From contig NYXK01000232.1 in NCBI GenBank assembly GCA_002685535.1, positions 1 to 64,000 on the forward strand: 64,000 nt of DNA, read 5' to 3'. The translations under genes were made by a program, and so were the position numbers. The number at the start of each line of letters is the position of its first letter. Within the stretch, counting starts at the first letter, position 1. The stretch is from Deltaproteobacteria bacterium (GTDB taxonomy: Bacteria; SAR324; NAC60-12). Shown here piece after piece: positions 10,515 to 45,700 of this stretch. Under the pieces are notes generated by a model, which did no database searches, was not told the origin of the DNA, and saw nothing but the letters and a program-made list of their open reading frames with translations.

Positions 10515-13500
10515 ATGGCTCAATCCTCGTCCGGCTCTGGCGCTAAATCTGGATCTCCTCCAGCAGGTGATCTCAATGTTGGCCCCTTAAACGCAACCTC
10601 ACATCCCGAGATCACCACACCTACGCCCTCATCCACCTCCTCAGTATCACGTTCTCTCCACCCATCCTCTCTTCCCCCTCCCACCCAACCAGCCATCCGC
10701 TCCCTCTCCAGCAACACGCACACGCGGTCCATCACCGTCAGCACGGCCCTCGGCCCAACCTCCACCTGCACAGAATACGAACGACTCGTCGGCAAGATCA
10801 TGCGCGACAATTTCTGGGATCTGGACCCTTTTACGGTGGGACTGAATCCTGGCTTGTTGAATTTCGACAAGCCATTTATTAGGAGTAAGGCGCCGCATAT
10901 TAGGGGGAAGATGAGGTTGCTGGAGAGGATTCTGGGGAGGATGGTTGAGGTGAGATTTGCGCTTACTTAGTTTACTTACTATCTTTCTTTTGACTCAGAC
11001 TTTGAATGGTGTTTTATGAGGTGTAAAGAAAATTGAGGTTTGGACTACAACTGATGCTTGGATGCTAGGACGAACATCTACTTCTGGTTTGCACGGAACC
11101 GAATATGTATAGGCCGCACCCGAATCGTTCGACTATTGATTACCTGGTTATTGGTGATGATCCGCCTTGGATCCCGCATTTCTTTAATGGCTCTTTGGCG
11201 TTTCCGCATGTTGAGGAAGCTATGAGGAGTATTGAGCGGTTTCTGGATAGTGAAAGTGGATCGCAACGTAAGCAAGCCTTGTTTCTCTTCCTTGCGCTTT
11301 CCTCTTTGGATGCAACTCAGCATTATGCCTGGAAGCTTTGTTTTGCTCAATGGATGTCGGGAATAAAGCTGATGGTTTACAGCTCCGTCTCGAGTTCCTA
11401 CAGTTGGTGTTTCGCGTGCCTCTTCCTCTGCTATCAACAGATTCAAGACCGAGGAATTGCCTTCTTGCGAGGAGTACATCGACTTCGTCCATGCAGTAGT
11501 CCAGTCCATCAGTAGCCCCGAATCAACAGGCACGATTCGTGAAGATCACTTCTTCCCAAGTATGGCTGTGACGCCTGTTGCGGAAGTGAGAAAAAGAGCC
11601 AATCTAGTAATGCGATTGATGGCACGGATGGTTGAGGTGATTCACTCCGTCATTGACTGGGACCCATTACTAACGATTGTAGGACGACGTTCTGACCAGA
11701 GTCTCGGCGGAAGAAGGCACTTACGTCTTGCATCCTGATTGCCGTCCTGCTGATTATACGGCTGATCGAGGCTTGACTGATATCTCCCATTGGGTTTGGA
11801 CTTTCAAGACTTGGGCAGTACTTGATCAGGTTGCGGAGAAGGCGGTGACGAATTTGGAGAAGTTCTTGAAGGATCTCAGTCCTGCCGAGCGATCAAGAGT
11901 CAAAGTAGAGGTAAGATGACAAGATTTAATTTTCAGGCATTCACTAACATCTTCCAGCGCAAAGATACTCCTCCTCCTTCGAAGGTTGAATCTAAGTTCG
12001 AAGATGATGATGTCGTTATTGTCAAGGTATGAAAGCGCACACAGGATGTTTACAGGGATAGCTAACGGGCGACCAAGCAAGAAAAAGCAGCTTCGTCGTC
12101 TATCAAAGCCCGGGCACCGAAGCTACAATCGAAGCCACAAGCAAAGCCCAGGCGGCAGAAACATAAACGAACTGACCCCACCCGAGAAGTAAGTTCCAGT
12201 TCTAGCGGATCAGATCAGTCCGAGATAATTCCTATTCTCACATTTCCGAAAAGTCCGCCTCCACATGAAATGTCTGCCCCACCACAAATCGTGCCAGCGG
12301 ATACTTTGATGCCATCCATCGAAACGCCTGACGAGAATTCAATATTTTTGATCCAACGCCGTGAGAGTAAGGTATGATACACTCGAGAAAAGAAATGTCT
12401 TGCGTAGCTAACAGACATAGACCCTTGCGGATTACTTTCGAACTACTCTACCTCTAATCCAGCACTTTGCGCCATCCGACGCTCTCGAATTTGATGAACT
12501 CCACATGAGTTATCCAAATGATGCATTTGAAGTCATCATTGAGGAGACAGTTTCGGGCCACATCTTCCAGGTTATTTGTCATGATTGTGATGGGCGGAGG
12601 GTTGCTACGAAATTCCAGGGCTCTATCGCAAAACTCCAGATTCACTTGAATGCAGAATCGCATGTTTCTAACGTCATGTCAAAGCTAGATCGGATGGGAG
12701 AGTTGCCAAGGGAGACTACAGAGACCAAGAGGAGAATGGGGGTTCTCAAAAGAATTGCAAGCCAAAGAGGCCATGATCAAAATCAATATGCACATCGCCA
12801 AAACCCTGCCGTATCCGTGGGAAAGGACTCGTCTTCGCATAGCACTCCTAGACGCTCAACGTCCCCTGGGTCGATGGAACTCCTACAGTCCATGTACGGA
12901 CTTCCTACAAAAGCTTTCAAATACAAGCCGCCCCGTCCTAGGACCAGAGATGCTCTCGCAGATCGGAATAGCCTCTCTGTCCATGATCCAGCTCCGCCTA
13001 TCCAAAACGGCCTTTCTCATCCCACCCCACCTTCTACAAACTCCCTACAAGCCCCTGATGACTTGTTCCGGACAGAGGTGTCCAAGAGATTCGAGGTTCT
13101 GGAAGAAAGCAATAGGAAAAAGAAGACGAAACTTGAGCATTATGGTACACTGCTTGGACAAACAAATAATAAGTATGTGAAGATCGAACAGGAAATCGCC
13201 AGCCTCAGATCCCGTGAAGCCCAGCATGCCGCCCACGTACAGTCTATGCGCGACGCCGTGATATCTGGCATGGACAATCTTGTCCAAATGTTCGCACGCT
13301 CACAGGCTATTCCTAGTGAAGTTAGCGATCAGCTAGAAGCCCTTCTGGGTAGAGATGAACAACACGAATCTCGTTGGGTGGAAGTGGAAAATTTCCGCAC
13401 CGATCTTTCAAGGCTTCTGCAGACTCTGGGTCAGAAACAAGACGGGTTGGAAGATAAGCTCGATGATCTTCTGAATCGTGAATATCCTACGGAGGCCAGC

Positions 13501-14607
13501 GGAGGTATCGCCGGCATCCATGAGAGGATTCAGGAGTTGGAATCGTCCAAGATTCAATTGCTTGAATCTCAGAACGAGTTGGAACGGGGGAATACTATCA
13601 TCAATGCTAGATTCGCACTCCTAGAGCGACATGACCATTCCTTGGAGGAAGCAACACAACTTATCACAAGTAATTCAGACCGCATCAAGACTTTGGAGAC
13701 TACTCGCGGCCATATTTTAGAAGCCAACGAGAGCTTTGCAAACTCCCTGAAGAAGCTCATCGCTCGGATTGAGGTCGTCGAAGAGGGTAACCAGAGCACG
13801 ACGAATCTGGTAGAGTCAGTGCGCAACTCCGTCGGTCCACTTAATGAATCTATCGACCTCCTCACCGAACGCTTTTCTGCACAAGACAAGCATATCGAGA
13901 GCCTCACGAAGAAGGTCAAAAAGTTCGATGAGTGGGTCAAATACTTTTCAGACGTTGTTGAGATCCAGAAGACCTGTATCGAGGATTTGCAGAACAAGCA
14001 GGTCAGCGAGATGAAGTCGAGGAAATCTTTTGAGCAGCGCATGGAGGAGATGATGAAGGTCAGCGCGGAGAGGGAGGAGAAGATGGCGGAGCGTATTAAG
14101 AGCTTGGAGAAGAAAGAGGAGAGATCTGCTGCGCAAATTGCGCTGCTCAAGACATACTCAACACCAAGGAGTGTGGCTGGAAGCGACCATGAACGTGGAT
14201 CGAGCACACCAAAGAGCTCTTCCCAAATGGCTGCTACCAATACAGCTTCAAGGGTTTCGCAACTCGCAACCGGTAGTGGTAGTGGTCCTTCAACACCAAT
14301 CAGACCACCTTTACGAACCAGCTTAGCTGGAAGTATAAGCAGACCTCCTTTTACGTCGACCTCGTCACCTGCCGCTGTTAGACCACCTGCTTCAAACAGC
14401 AATGCTTCGACTCCAATTCGGCCTCCCCCCTCTTCATTGACAGGTACAAGTGGCTCAAATAATCAAAGTGCTTCGAAGAATGCTCAGCCGGCAGCAGCTC
14501 CACCTAGAAACTCACAGCTGCCAAGTAGCTCTCAGCCTCCGAAGAGCTCGCAGCCTCCTAAGAGCTCACAACCGCTTATTCCAAACAGGAAGCCACGGAA
14601 GTTCTGA
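10515..14607 (+). CDS. Large coiled-coil protein with duplicated N-terminal module and Cys2His2-like finger
   Basis: Seven exons (10515-10949, 11069-11267, 11383-11636, 11683-11910, 11958-12026, 12078-12371, 12421-14607) join in frame to 1221 aa. I do not recognise the family. Two related modules lie at about residues 115-211 and 250-370: each has a helix ending RMVE at an exon boundary, then a motif with HP..R..DY, then a helix like EEAMRSIERFL / EKAVTNLEKFL. Residues 494-580 hold a finger, Cys546-X2-Cys549-X18-His568-X5-His574, in the context FQVICHDCDG. From about residue 680 to 1060 the protein is heptad-rich coiled coil; the tail is Ser/Pro-rich and basic, ending NRKPRKF. The ATG with context CAACATGGC was chosen over upstream codons. 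The adjacent downstream gene shares the finger and coiled coil, suggesting tandem duplication. A nuclear or structural role is possible but unproven. Confidence 0.82.
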
Positions 14608-15211
14608 AGCTGGATTGACGGCTGGATGATAAACTCTCGCACACAATTTGGAAGCAGGGGAGTGCATAACAGATGATGGTGATTGTCCTTGGTCAGAGCA
14701 TGACATGGGATGGCGTACGGGCTCAACACATTTTTGCAGCGAAATTAATACACTTGGTGGGAAGGCGTTTTCGAGCTTTTGAGCGTTTCATTGCATTGCA
14801 TGGCATGGTATGGTATGCATGGTATAGCAGGCGAAATGGTGTTGACCTGAATTGGTCTGGTTCGAAGTCTTTGTAGAATACATCGAGGCGCGAGAATGGA
14901 CAACTCATTGATGCCACTAAGGACATGATAGAGGATCGTAAAGTAATTCGCCGGAAGGCATAACCAACAGCTACTCCACAGACGCGGCAGGCAAACCTGA
15001 CTCCAAAACAAATGGAACTTTCAACCGAAAAGGAGATTTCTACTGAGAAGCCAATGATTTGAAGTGCCATCTCTTCAACTGGACAGGAGCAGTCAGCAAG
15101 ATTCAATTGAGCGCGCAGACGAGATCCGTATGCCATCCTTTTCCCCCAAAGGCATCACACCAGCTAAGCTAACCAATTCCTCCAGGTCGGCATACTGACG
15201 CATACAAGGCC
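14608..15211. other. Spacer between the tandem coiled-coil genes
   Basis: No gene is seen. A short GCATG/GTATG-rich repetitive tract lies at about 14790-14826. The last 100 bases are the likely promoter of the next gene. Confidence 0.55.
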
Positions 15212-17143
15212 ATGACAGCCAATGCCGTCCCTCTCATCCCTCCTCCGTCCGAACAACCCTTCATGCAGACCCCGTCGCGAAAGAGAACTCGCCCTTTCGA
15301 CAGAGCAGCTAGCGATGATAGCAGCAGTTTCGACCGTATCAGTCCTCATCGCTATGCAAACTCTACACCGAGACGCAGCGCGAAGAGAATACGATCTGGC
15401 ACACCATTGAGCGGATCTCGAAGGACAAGTGCACATGGGAGACTATTTGCTTCACCTAGAAAAGCTGGGAGTTTGTCTGGTTTCGAGAACTTGAACTTGA
15501 GCCAGGGTAATGATGAATGCTCTGGGACATTTGGACTTGAGGATATTCGATTCAAGGAGGAAAAGAGGAGAGATACTCCGGACGCGGGTGTCTATGAAAT
15601 TGTCCGAGATCTCTGCGATAAATACCCAGACAGCAGCTTCGAAACAGACAATGGGAACATTAAATGTCTCGACTGCGACAAGTCACCGAAGGCCAACTTT
15701 CATGGACTTGTTACCCACGAGAGGAGCAAAGCACATCAGAATGATATCAAGGAGAAGCTCGCCAATCCTGTTTCTAAGCAGGCCGCTTTCAAAGATACAA
15801 TGATGTTCCCTCCTCCAAAGGTCATGGATTTGGGGATCGATTTTAACATTTCGCAGCAGCCGCTGGCAGTGTATGCACAGAGAGCGACTCAGAATCTGGC
15901 GTCTACGAGAGAACAGTATTTAAAAGCTCTGGAAAATGAAAATCATATTGGCTCGATACGGATGCCGTTTTTGGAGTCACGGCAGGAGAAGGCTGAGAAG
16001 CTGAATACCGCGAAAATGGAGAAGCTGAAGGAGGATCTTGATGAAGTGGGAGAGAAATGCAAGAATTTATCGCACGAATTGACGGAGAAGCTGGACTGGT
16101 CGGAAGAGAAGACGAGGATACAGCTGCGGGAGGTCAAGGAGCGTCTTGATGTAAGCGAGGGGAAGAACAAATAGCAGTTGAAGAGCATGGGGTCTCGTAT
16201 CAAAGAGACTTCTGAGGACTGCGATGTCAAGCTCGATAAGATGTTGACCTCTCTGGCTAAATTCGACCACCGTAATATGGACCGTATCGATGATCTGAAA
16301 ACAGACCTGCGGAAGTTGGATGAGGGAATGGAAGAGCAATTATCTGCTCTGAAGTCCAAGATCATGGAACTAGAGGACTTGAACACCGAAACCCAGCGCG
16401 GAGACCTCGAAGCCAGCATCAGAGAACTCGAGTCTTCCGAGCTGGAGTCCCGTACCCTCCGCGCAAAAATGGAATCTCGACTCACCTCCATCGAAAACAG
16501 CATTAGGGAATCAGACAAACACAGGTTCTCTCTCGTAGCATAAATCCTCGACTTACAAACCTCACAGGAAGAATCGAAAGCCGCTACTTCAGGGTTGAAA
16601 TCTCGTCTTGAGGAACTAGAAAAGGCGAATTCGCTGAAGGAAGAGGAGCTGCATGATCTGGAAGCTAATTTGCAGATGTTGAGTGAAGATCTGCAGAGGC
16701 AGAGGGATTGGAATTTGCAGTATCAGATGACGGTTAAGGATCAAATCGAAGCGCTTTTTCAATTTACGGAGAAGAATGCAAGGAATGCGGAGAACGCGAC
16801 GGCTAAGCGCGAAGAGGAAGCGAGAGAGAGGGAACGAGCACTTGAGGAGAGGTTGACGGGGAGGAGGATGGAGCGAGTCGAGAAGGAGATTAGAGAAGAG
16901 AGGGAGTTGGATAGGAGGAAGATGGTGAGGTTGAAGGAGAAGAATAGGGAGTTGCAGGATGAGTTGGATGATCTTAAGGGTGATTTGCTGCCGTTGATTA
17001 TGGCTGATTTGGAAGGAGGGCTGGAAAGTGTTGTGGGGTTGAAAGAAAAGGTTGAGGTGCTGGAGGGGTTGGCGGTGCAGATGAGTGTGCCTCTAGATTC
17101 GAGGACAAGAGCCGTCAGTGAGAGGAGGGAGATTTCTGTTTGA
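15212..17143 (+). pseudogene. Finger plus coiled-coil paralogue interrupted by TAG and a frame mismatch
   Basis: An ATG at 15212 opens a frame of 320 codons ending in TAG at 16172-16174. The same frame then continues as heptad-rich coiled coil to 16524, and coiled coil resumes from 16568 to 17143. The N-terminal part has nuclear-type basic motifs (SRKRTRPFD, RRSAKRIRSG) and a finger, Cys152-X2-Cys155-X13-His169-X5-His175, in the context IKCLDCD. This resembles the finger of the upstream gene, including a preceding YP-x-x-x-F-E stretch. The likely second intron (GTTCTC...CTCACAG, 16525-16567) leaves the frame off by one base; a 33-nt alternative from 16535 would fit frame but is too short. Either the gene is recently broken, or TAG readthrough and unusual splicing operate. 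The homology is clear; functional status is open. Confidence 0.6.
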
Positions 17144-34931: not shown

Positions 34932-35642
34932 TCACTTCTTCGAAGTCCCGAACCCAGTGATTCCCATACTAGCCATCATATCATCCTCATCATGCTCACC
35001 CTCCACCCTAACATCCTCCCCATACTCCCTTTTCACCTTAACACCCTCCTCCCTCTCCGCCTTCTGCCTCTCCACCATTTCCCTTCTCTTTTCCCTCCTC
35101 TCCTCCCTCCTCTTCTCCTCCTCCTCCTTCCTGACCTCCAACCTCTCCCCAAGCGTCTTAACATCCCCCCTCTTCTCCTCCACCATCCTCTCCCAGATCG
35201 CCGCAATCCTCTCATGCACCTCCTCAACCGTCGCGCGCTTCACCTCCCCCGTCTGCCCAATCGCCCTCAGATGCTGCATACTATTCTCATGCTCCACCCA
35301 CTGCAAATTATCCTTAAACGTCAAATCACAATCCTTGCAGTAAAACCCCGCGCCACGACCTCTCTTGCCTGTCGCCGCCCCCGCGGGCATCAGAGTGACT
35401 TTGCCTACATTGGCGGAGACGTCGAGACGCGAGGCGCGGGCTTGAGTAAGAGTTTCTTCGCCCGTGAGGGGAGCGTAGTATTTCTTGCCGGCGACCTTGG
35501 CTTCGTAGCGGGCTTTGGATTCTTCTTTTTCTTTGGCTTCGCGATCGGCGGCTTTTTGCGCGTATTCGGCGCGGTCGTATTTCTTGCGGAAGTCGGTATC
35601 TTTGGCGGCGGTGTCGTAGGCGCCTTTCTTTGGGGCGGACAT
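34932..35642 (-). CDS. SNU23: U4/U6.U5 tri-snRNP protein Snu23 (ZMAT2 homologue)
   Basis: A single exon encodes 236 aa. Snu23 is a component of the spliceosomal tri-snRNP and B complex. The U1-type zinc finger is Cys102-X2-Cys105-X12-His118-X5-His124 (YCKDCDLTFKDNLQWVEHEN). It is preceded by the conserved N-terminal helix (FRKKYDRAEYAQKAADREAK) and the segment YYAPLTGEETLTQARASRLD. A long Glu/Arg-rich helix follows and the protein ends MASMGITGFGTSKK, as in homologues. The gene is divergent from DPH5, with 258 bp between start codons. Confidence 0.95.
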   Translation of the reverse strand: MSAPKKGAYDTAAKDTDFRKKYDRAEYAQKAADREAKEKEESKARYEAKVAGKKYYAPLTGEETLTQARASRLDVSANVGKVTLMPAGAATGKRGRGAGFYCKDCDLTFKDNLQWVEHENSMQHLRAIGQTGEVKRATVEEVHERIAAIWERMVEEKRGDVKTLGERLEVRKEEEEKRREERREKRREMVERQKAEREEGVKVKREYGEDVRVEGEHDEDDMMASMGITGFGTSKK

Positions 35643-35900
35643 GGTTGCGATTATATTCGATGGGCGTATGATTGATAGGTAATTCCTTCGTGAAGCGGGG
35701 TGTATGTACGGGTAATCGAGCTCGTGGGTGGTGATTGCGAAGCTTGGGATGTTCGTGATGGTTAGAACTTGGTGTTGATGTCTGGGAACTTTTTAGACCC
35801 ACATTCAAAGCAAACTGAGCAAACACGCGGGGTCAAAATTTAAATTTCACCCCTCCATCAACAACAATCACCCTTTCATTCACGAAGCCCCGACTCCAAA
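35643..35900. promoter_or_regulatory. Short shared promoter region of SNU23 and DPH5
   Basis: Two divergent housekeeping genes have start codons 258 bp apart with nothing else between them, so their promoters must overlap or abut. No TATA-like box is clear. Confidence 0.5.
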
Positions 35901-40707: not shown

Positions 40708-41232
40708 CTACTTGAGCCAAAGGAGAGGACGGTTGCCCTTTTTCTCACCCAGTCTCTCGAGCTTCAAGAAGATCTTGTATCGACGATCTTGTCTATTCTG
40801 GAGCATACGGTGATATCCGGCATGCTCAGAGTACTCGACCACTTGCTCAACATGCGCAAAGTCCCGCATCAAGGAGTTTTGATTGAAGAGCTTGATTTCA
40901 AGAGGGTTTCTGAAGTTTGGCAGTTCGATATCGAAGAGCAGATCGCGAGGAGCCGCCAAGATGTCGGTCTGGAAGTTGAACCAGATGGGCTTGTTATCGA
41001 CACCTGCGAAGGCCAGCTTGAAGTACTTCAAAGCGATGCTGCGTGAGTTCTTGCAGACGCTCAGCATGCCTGGTGCACGTGTTCCTCTTGAATTGTGTTC
41101 GGTCGACCATCTTGCGTTCCAGGGCTTGTGCTCGTTATGTTTGTCCAAGATGGAACGAATCTTGACTGTGAGAGGCTCATAGTTCTTGATAGCAGCTTCC
41201 CAGATGAGATCTTGAAGCTCGTTGGTTGCCAT
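40708..41232 (-). CDS. 2EXR-domain protein (short form)
   Basis: A single exon encodes 174 aa. The domain core is visible: LQDLIWEAAIKNYEPL, then PGMLSVCKNSRSIALKYFKL and AFAGVDNKPIWFNFQTDIL, followed by a Leu-rich C-terminal part. The usual N-terminal F-x-x-LP-x-E-L-R stretch is mostly missing, so the protein may be N-terminally shortened or the domain is atypical. The ATG in ATAATGGCAACC was chosen because the longer frame has no upstream ATG. 2EXR proteins are abundant in leotiomycetes and have no assigned function. A TATA-like box lies about 90 bp upstream. Confidence 0.75.
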   Translation of the reverse strand: MATNELQDLIWEAAIKNYEPLTVKIRSILDKHNEHKPWNARWSTEHNSRGTRAPGMLSVCKNSRSIALKYFKLAFAGVDNKPIWFNFQTDILAAPRDLLFDIELPNFRNPLEIKLFNQNSLMRDFAHVEQVVEYSEHAGYHRMLQNRQDRRYKIFLKLERLGEKKGNRPLLWLK

Positions 41233-41319
41233 TATGGATTTTGTCTTGTGTAGAAACAGTAGAATTGTGGTAGATTCTTGGGGAAGAGGGAATGTTGAAC
41301 TCACAAGTGGAGCTTGGGC

Positions 41320-42744: not shown

Positions 42745-45700
42745 TTATAAGATCTCCTCTTCAGTATCAGTATCATCATCAGCAGCAAACGCGGTAGAGC
42801 CATGACCAATGCTTCCCTGATTTGAGCCAGCAACGACTTCAGCAAAGCCGCCACGAGGAGCGCTCGAGCTATCTCTAGCAGCCAGTCCACCACGATCTCT
42901 GCTAGCCTCCTGGGAGGATTTCGAGACATAGTAAGCAGTACCTCCACCAGTATTGCCCATAGCCTTTGGCGTATACCGAGGTGTAGGGATGAGTCCAGCG
43001 ACAGGTCCCCTATTATCACCATTCGACGAACCCCCAGCACTACCGCTACGACCGTGATTGCCCAGACGAATGACTCCAAAGCTTCCTCCTGTGCCACTTG
43101 CATATGGTGGTCCGTATGGCGAGACATATCGAATAGGATCAGGCCCATCAAGGTTATAGGTACCAGAGACAACAGAGGCGACAGAAGCATATGGAGAAAT
43201 GTATGGCGCTGGAGGTTGGGAAAAGCCTCTCTGGTTATTTCCAACGGGGCCAGATTCGGTGAAGGGAGAATTTCTGCAAATATTGTTTCCGCCGGCATTT
43301 CCCGCGAAAGCATTGCTTTGCATTGTCCGTGGAGCTATGCGACGAGAGGCTCCTCCACCAAGATGTTCTGTAGGTGGAGGAGCAATGTTTTGGGTCGTAG
43401 CTGAAGACTTGTATGGAGATATGTATTGGCTTGGGTTGATAGCATTGGTGATGATGGCGTTGACTGCAGTCTTTACTTCGGCAGGTGCGAGATGGCCGAC
43501 AGGAAGATAGTCGCCATCAGAGCCTTGGAGAGGACCAACGGGAGAAGTAGCATTGTTCGAAGCTTCCGGAACACGGGTTACGCATGTACAGCAGAGGGAG
43601 CTGCTGGCAGCCTCCCGAAGGCGTCGGACTGCGAGAGGGTTGTTTAGTTCGGCGGCGGCTCGTGCGGCGGCAGAGCGCGGAGAAAGAGGGGGAGCAGGTA
43701 CTTCGAATGAAAACGGAGGTCGGGGACCATAGTCGTTCGGAATTTGGTTGCTGTAGACACCTGTACCCCAGATATCGTCGGCTCTACGCTTCGCCATATT
43801 CCACTTCCACTATGAAAAGTGCAATCAGTATTTGATCAGTAGCTCAGATGCAAGATAGACAATGACTTGGACCGAATAGAAAGCGTTGAAAAGGAAACTT
43901 ACGAATTTCTTGGCCTTGTTGACTCGCTTTGGCCACTGCGAAGGCATAATGGCAATTTCCAAAACATCCTCGGCTTTCTGCCAGACAACCACAAAAGGTC
44001 CATGATTAACAGCCCCTTCCACCTCGTTCGCAAGAGCGTCTGTCAATTCAGCGGCAGAAAGCTCTTTACGATGAGACTTGACGTCTCCCTTCTCCTTCAC
44101 TGGTACAGCAAGGGCATGATCGCTGGCAGTGCCGGCGTCGCCAATGCTTGAGGCTGCGAAAGTGTTATTATTATCGCTATCAAGATGGATGGTAGAATTA
44201 GCGCTGAGAATGGACTCGCCGGCTGATTTTCCAGTATCTGAAAGAATGGTGTTATTGATTGGTCTCTTGATCTTGGAGCAAGTATACATGAATGTACGGA
44301 AGTCGATGACCAATTCAGTGGTCGCTTGCTCGTTAACTACCTTGGCAGGCTGGACGTGAACAGCATCCGCAAATGATATATCGACCATGGCCTCGTCAAT
44401 CAAAGTGTCGACATCCATGGATATATCAGCGATAGCCTGGTCGATCAACGTTTCAACTTCTGGCAGCTCTACTATGCTGTCGTCTGGAGCTGCAGCTTCA
44501 ACAGTACTCTTTTCAGAGAGAGTAGCACTGTTGACCGAGTCGGCCTTTGGTACTTCGTCGACCAGCGAGCTTCCATTGATGTCCTCAACTGTCAAACTAG
44601 ACCGTGTCGAGGCGGTGGCTTGAGCCTGTTGTGTTGAGATCTGGGTAGCCAGCTGACTGGCAGCAAATTTAAACTTGTCGTAGAACTTGTCCTTGGCAGC
44701 AGTATCGATATGGTCGTGTGGCTTCTCGATCAAAAGAGTCTTCAAGCTGGTGAAGTGGCAAATACGAGCATACTGATCTCCATCAGTCATAAGACCTGCG
44801 CCGTGAATGCCAAGCTTCTGAATCTTAGCCAAGTCGTCCTTGATGAAGGGCATCCTCTCAATGAAATCAGGATCGACGCCCCAGAGGTGCAACGCATCGA
44901 GGCTGAAGTTGAAATACTTTGGCTTGCCATCAACAGCACCGAAAGCCAGCTTGTAGAATCTCTTCGCGACTTCACGGGCCTCATGATTGACGCGCAAGAG
45001 AACAGGTCTCTTCCCTCCAAATCCTTGAGTGGTATAGATATCCGATCCGGCACACTTAACGTAGGCTCCACTGTGCTGATAGATGGCCACGACACGGGAC
45101 TCTTGTGGTAGAGCGTACTCCCAGATCTTTTCTCGGATATTGTCTGGAAGCTCGAGGAAGTCTTCAAACAGCATCGGGCAGGAGGCTTCCTTCTTGATAA
45201 CGAAGGGTATGGCGTATGGGCAAGGGTTGATCTTCTTTCTGAGCCGCTCTGGAGCCATATCTCTGTTCAGAGCATGGAAAGCCTTGAAGTTATTGGCCAT
45301 CCTCGATCCGTCGAGATCGTTCCAGAGGAACCATGGGTCGAAAGCTAGGGAGACGCGTTAGATCTGATCAATGATGGATCGGAATGTATATACCGTTCCA
45401 TCCTTCTGAATCCTCCGACTCGTAATCTTCGTCATCATACTCGTCCTTGTACTCTTCATCGTAGTCCTCATAGTCGTCGTATCCGTCCCAGTCTTCTTCA
45501 TACCCCTCGTCGCCCTCATATCCCTCCTCATCTTCGTCATAGTCATACCCTTCGTCATCCCCTTCGTCATCCCCATCCTCGCCCTCATCATCTTCGTACT
45601 GACCTTCACCTTCGTATTCAACATAGTCAGAGATGGTCACTCTCTTGCTCATCCTGCCCATCTTGTCATCTGGGGAGGAATCAGGGGTTCCTGATGATCC

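Follow-up and report, generated by a model that had tools for sequence, protein, structure and literature searches.

The finger common to two neighboring genes of the window (the 64,000-nucleotide stretch of contig NYXK01000232.1, assembly GCA_002685535.1, that was analyzed as a whole) is, on sequence grounds, not wholly new: it is an unnamed domain of Snf5, probably in its filamentous-fungal form, in a new setting on coiled-coil proteins. The first-pass annotation had placed it in no described family, which is right insofar as Pfam holds no model of it and wrong insofar as the same finger forms the tail of the Snf5 in PDB entry 23fj. Through this comparison an unnamed finger gains a definite location, the Snf5 tail, and a domain missing from Pfam is delineated. 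We further propose, with a probability of about 0.6, that genes 1 and 2 encode nuclear scaffold-type proteins of a filamentous ascomycete that reuse the Snf5-tail finger as a chromatin docking module.

As first described, both proteins carry YP-x-x-x-F-E and then C-X2-C, separated by 18 or 13 residues from H-X5-H. In the gene 1 protein the signature reads YPNDAFE from residue 524, CHDC from residue 546 and, after 18 residues, H-LNAES-H; its counterpart in the gene 2 protein is YPDSSFE at residue 138, CLDC at residue 152 and, 13 residues further, H-ERSKA-H (Table 1). The fingers align with 31% identity over 64 residues (BLASTP E=2e-4 in a single comparison), a score reached by none of 1,000 shuffles with Cys and His held fixed (Z=5.3). 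The likeness extends beyond chance and beyond the common zinc ligands, and the original view that they are of one type is borne out: the two are one domain. The N-terminal parts of the proteins showed no likeness in pairwise comparison. A common origin of the coiled coils was not accepted: only 3 of 300 block shuffles reach their score, but the reversed sequence scores high as well. Since the genes are adjacent and have only the finger clearly in common, the module is likely to have spread either through domain shuffling or through a tandem duplication long ago, after which the copies diverged.

Table 1. Features of the window (all coordinates refer to the 64,000-nucleotide stretch).
Feature	Position	Strand	Remarks
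Gene 1, 7 exons, 1221 aa	10515-14607	+	Open spliced frame, six introns all GT-AG
Gene 1 exons	10515-10949, 11069-11267, 11383-11636, 11683-11910, 11958-12026, 12078-12371, 12421-14607	+	
Unnamed domain at the gene 1 N-terminus, copy 1 (intron inside)	10767-11254	+	Aligns with copy 2, BLASTP E=1e-10
Unnamed domain at the gene 1 N-terminus, copy 2 (intron inside)	11466-11877	+	Alignment with copy 1; MCM6_C hint
Finger domain 1: helix-YPNDAFE-beta hairpin-C-X2-C-X18-H-X5-H	12478-12705	+	Motif Y..H 12511-12663
Gene 1 coiled-coil region	13060-14160	+	Heptad periodicity
Gene 2, open part with finger, 320 aa	15212-16171	+	
Finger domain 2: YPDSSFE-C-X2-C-X13-H-X5-H	15593-15778	+	Motif Y..H 15623-15736
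Gene 2 in-frame TAG	16172-16174	+	Context AAA TAG CAG TTG
Gene 2 downstream coiled-coil coding sequence, same frame	16175-17143	+	Second in-frame stop TAA at 16541-16543
ZMAT2/Snu23-like spliceosomal protein	34932-35792	-	jaz/zf-met finger; positive control
2EXR-family gene (PF20150)	40711-41319	-	Neighbor of the next
2EXR-family gene (PF20150)	43828-45357	-	

The link to Snf5 emerged from searches of the PDB. The top phmmer match of finger 1 among all PDB chains was Snf5 of 23fj, with E=0.059 and both halves of the motif collinear. A profile built from the two window fingers only, used in place of one that included Snf5 itself and was dropped as circular, gave a single significant match among 177,635 PDB sequences: Snf5 again (23fj_S, E=6.7e-5), at the C-terminal end of the protein (residues 674-767 of 785) and with both halves collinear. 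In the full alignment, whose query had an artificial middle part so that only the target letters count as evidence, this segment reads LNELSKSYPNDSFEAIM ... IRCRDCPGKSYTAGPDTTVQNFEVHLTWKGHREKVAARLAK. The Snf5 segment scored 22.3 bits with finger 1 alone and 31.9 bits once finger 2 was added; with finger 2 shuffled and its ligands kept, the mean was 16.4 (SD, 3.6; maximum, 27.3), and none of 150 shuffles reached 31.9. Finger 1 resembles the Snf5 finger with Z=9.7, against control values near zero for Snu23 (Z=1.2) and ZNF593 (Z=0.3), and finger 2 alone fails to find Snf5 (6.4 bits). Because the joint profile finds Snf5 alone and the gain in score is lost when finger 2 is shuffled, finger 1, finger 2 and the Snf5 tail finger, the last represented by one sequence, are a single homologous domain.

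SYPNDxFE and C-X2-C-X18-H-X5-H are identical in finger 1 and the Snf5 tail (PDB 23fj chain S; 23il), whereas finger 2 has an X13 spacer instead of X18, and the loop between YPxxxFE and CxxC is shorter in the window proteins than in Snf5. The Snf5 finger ends its protein, whereas coiled coils lie downstream of the finger in the window proteins. Since the SNF5 core domain of Snf5 (PF04855) has no match at E<=10 in either protein, and none in the whole bin, the gene 1 and gene 2 products are not Snf5. The Snf5 finger itself likewise has no Pfam model, and a query with an artificial middle part matched no other PDB chain at E<=10. Yeast Snf5 and human SMARCB1 are among the PDB chains, which suggests that both lack this finger, and the Snf5 that bears it is probably from filamentous fungi (molds). 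A literature search returned no description of the tail finger. Matches to it on three other contigs (C224, C11 and C234) were weak, and their translations contained no finger. A zinc finger has also been reported on an SNF5-domain protein of the filamentous fungus Aspergillus oryzae (PMC8055810), but it is of the four-cysteine GATA type (C-X2-C-X20-C-X2-C), whereas the window fingers are C2H2, and the GATA reading was set aside.

Gene 1 is intact. Four of its introns measure 46 to 51 nucleotides and have CTAAC-like branch sites; the least secure boundary is the acceptor at 12077 (AAG). Two tandem copies of a domain of about 120 residues, with the pattern RMVED..L..V..E...Y..HP....DY, precede the finger. 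Searches of Pfam and the PDB gave no match to this domain; a hint below the Pfam cut-off for copy 2 (MCM6_C, E=0.025) points weakly to a winged helix, possibly the fold of the duplicated domain. The heptad periodicity of the coil is clear, its a/d hydrophobic score being reached by none of 200 shuffles. The sequences also show low-complexity Ser/Pro ends and basic Lys/Arg-rich stretches upstream of the finger.

In the scheme that we favor, that of nuclear scaffold-type proteins, the four Cys/His ligands of the finger would bind zinc, and the finger would attach its protein to a partner in chromatin, be it DNA, a nucleosome or a remodeler subunit, in the manner presumed for the tail of Snf5. 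The coiled coil may dimerize, oligomerize or join partners; the duplicated N-terminal domain of the gene 1 protein would supply a second contact, and both proteins would be nuclear. In Magnaporthe, Snf5 is fully functional only with its C-terminal region (residues 412 to 771), which binds Taf14 (PMC9861326); by analogy, Taf14-type or nucleosomal partners would be reasonable candidates for the finger proteins. Filamentous fungi also have remodeler subunits of their own, Fif1-4 (PDE_08093, PDE_01580, PDE_04776 and PDE_00988), and the bait masses of Fif1-3 (33.1, 77.8 and 92.2 kDa) do not suggest a match to the 1221-residue gene 1 protein (PMC13221647). Should the finger serve for docking, the coiled-coil proteins would rank as candidate chromatin factors peculiar to filamentous fungi. 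A bolder version, which we consider unlikely, has a lineage-specific remodeler finger spreading into a coiled-coil family of unrecognized SWI/SNF partners or regulators in filamentous fungi, with UAG readthrough in gene 2 possibly yielding, in addition, a short and a long form.

The window might instead encode two ordinary U1-type or matrin-like C2H2 fingers, as in ZNF593/Bud20 and ZMAT2/Snu23, recruited separately to bind dsRNA or pre-ribosomes, YPxxxFE being coincidental. H-X5-H and an LxxHxxSKxH helix are indeed U1-type traits; finger 2 has C-X2-C ... H-X5-H and the LxTHxRSKxH helix in common with ZNF593/Bud20 (1zr9, 6lss), it weakly resembles ZNF593 with phmmer E=0.22 and Z=4.7, and it gave a weak partial jaz match in Pfam (E=0.34). 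CKDCD and H-X5-H of the ZMAT2/Snu23 jaz/zf-met finger also recur in the window fingers. Finger 1, however, shows no likeness beyond chance to either family at the Z scores given above, so significant U1-type homology, a relation that had been suggested for checking, does not hold for both fingers; ZNF593/Bud20 is, moreover, a pre-ribosomal factor without a coiled coil. Neither finger reaches any Pfam cut-off for classical C2H2, zf-met or jaz, whereas the true ZMAT2/Snu23-like finger of the same window was recognized at once (PF12171/PF12874), in keeping with the earlier distinction from ordinary C2H2 fingers. The BED relation also raised at that stage found no Pfam match to either finger up to E=10. 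The joint profile finds Snf5 only; the two fingers align with each other and together point to the Snf5 tail, finger 2 leaning toward ZNF593/Bud20 when taken alone, and separate U1-type origins therefore seem improbable to us. Structure prediction, as had been advised, returned a helix, a beta hairpin to C-X2-C and an H-X5-H helix for both fingers, in AlphaFold models of low confidence (pLDDT 65 and 56 from two-row alignments) built from the same two sequences. Foldseek found nothing significant with them; the matches below significance include one of 43 columns at 1.5 Å to a 42-residue U11 snRNP chain (8r7n_E, E=2.9). Less probable still is a cytoskeletal or septal role for the coiled-coil proteins, unconnected with chromatin, the finger serving just to aid folding or to cap the dimer. 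The long coil of gene 1 and the Ser/Pro ends would suit such proteins, and the nuclear role is itself deduced, but the only relative found for the finger lies in a chromatin remodeler subunit, and the basic stretches upstream of the finger also count against this reading.

Gene 2 had been read as one open gene to 17143, which its two in-frame stops do not bear out: as assembled, the product ends after 320 residues and includes no more than roughly 100 residues of weak coil. The coiled coil of several hundred residues first ascribed to both proteins thus stands for gene 1, whereas in gene 2, where heptad periodicity is weaker, the long coil is unproven because no convincing intron removes the TAG and TAA. 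In a scan of donors and acceptors, neither stop could be spliced out by a canonical intron that had a branch point. The sole good donor near the TAG, GTAAGC at 16151, has its nearest AGs at 24, 27 or 33 nucleotides and lacks any acceptor that is in frame and has a branch point, longer options finishing at unlikely acceptors; no donor with at least four of six consensus bases removes the TAA. A 33-nucleotide stretch visible by eye (GTAGCA...CACAG, with CTTAC) was rejected as below the usual size of fungal introns. Gene 2 may therefore be a pseudogene, a product of sequencing or assembly error, or a case of readthrough. That it is a decaying or mis-assembled copy, the tandem pair being one working gene and a pseudogene, we rate a serious possibility somewhat short of even, and one compatible with the Snf5-finger explanation. 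The stops argue for it; on the other side, the interval 15212-17143 is a single frame whose three stop-delimited pieces share codon bias with no frameshift, the finger is intact, and single-base stops could arise from errors in a metagenome contig. The context of the first stop, UAG CAG UUG, is near, not equal to, CAR-YYA, the readthrough context of tobacco mosaic virus.

The combination of the finger with a long coil, first described as an architecture of no known family, was absent from the collections searched, which include no fungal genome or protein collection. Neither protein turned up in the genomes of 84,980 prokaryote species, the expected outcome for a gene of a fungus, and viral contigs and plasmids held no relative of either. 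The sole weak match in bins of the same family, order and phylum (in G007) has stops inside and was judged a chance hit.

Introns of the window genes are GT-AG and 46 to 119 nucleotides long, CTAAC-like branch sites marking the short ones, and Pfam identified the fungal families SUN, Zn2Cys6/Fungal_trans, 2EXR and WSC among the encoded proteins. From these traits we infer that the window, which comes from a contig of 64,512 bases (C231), is filamentous-ascomycete DNA placed in a prokaryote bin. That bin measures 7.28 Mb, two to five times its same-genus relatives (1.3 to 3.3 Mb); given its size and the fungal contig within it, much of it may be eukaryotic contamination. The two 2EXR genes of the window form a neighboring pair, and the family is expanded in Leotiomycetes.
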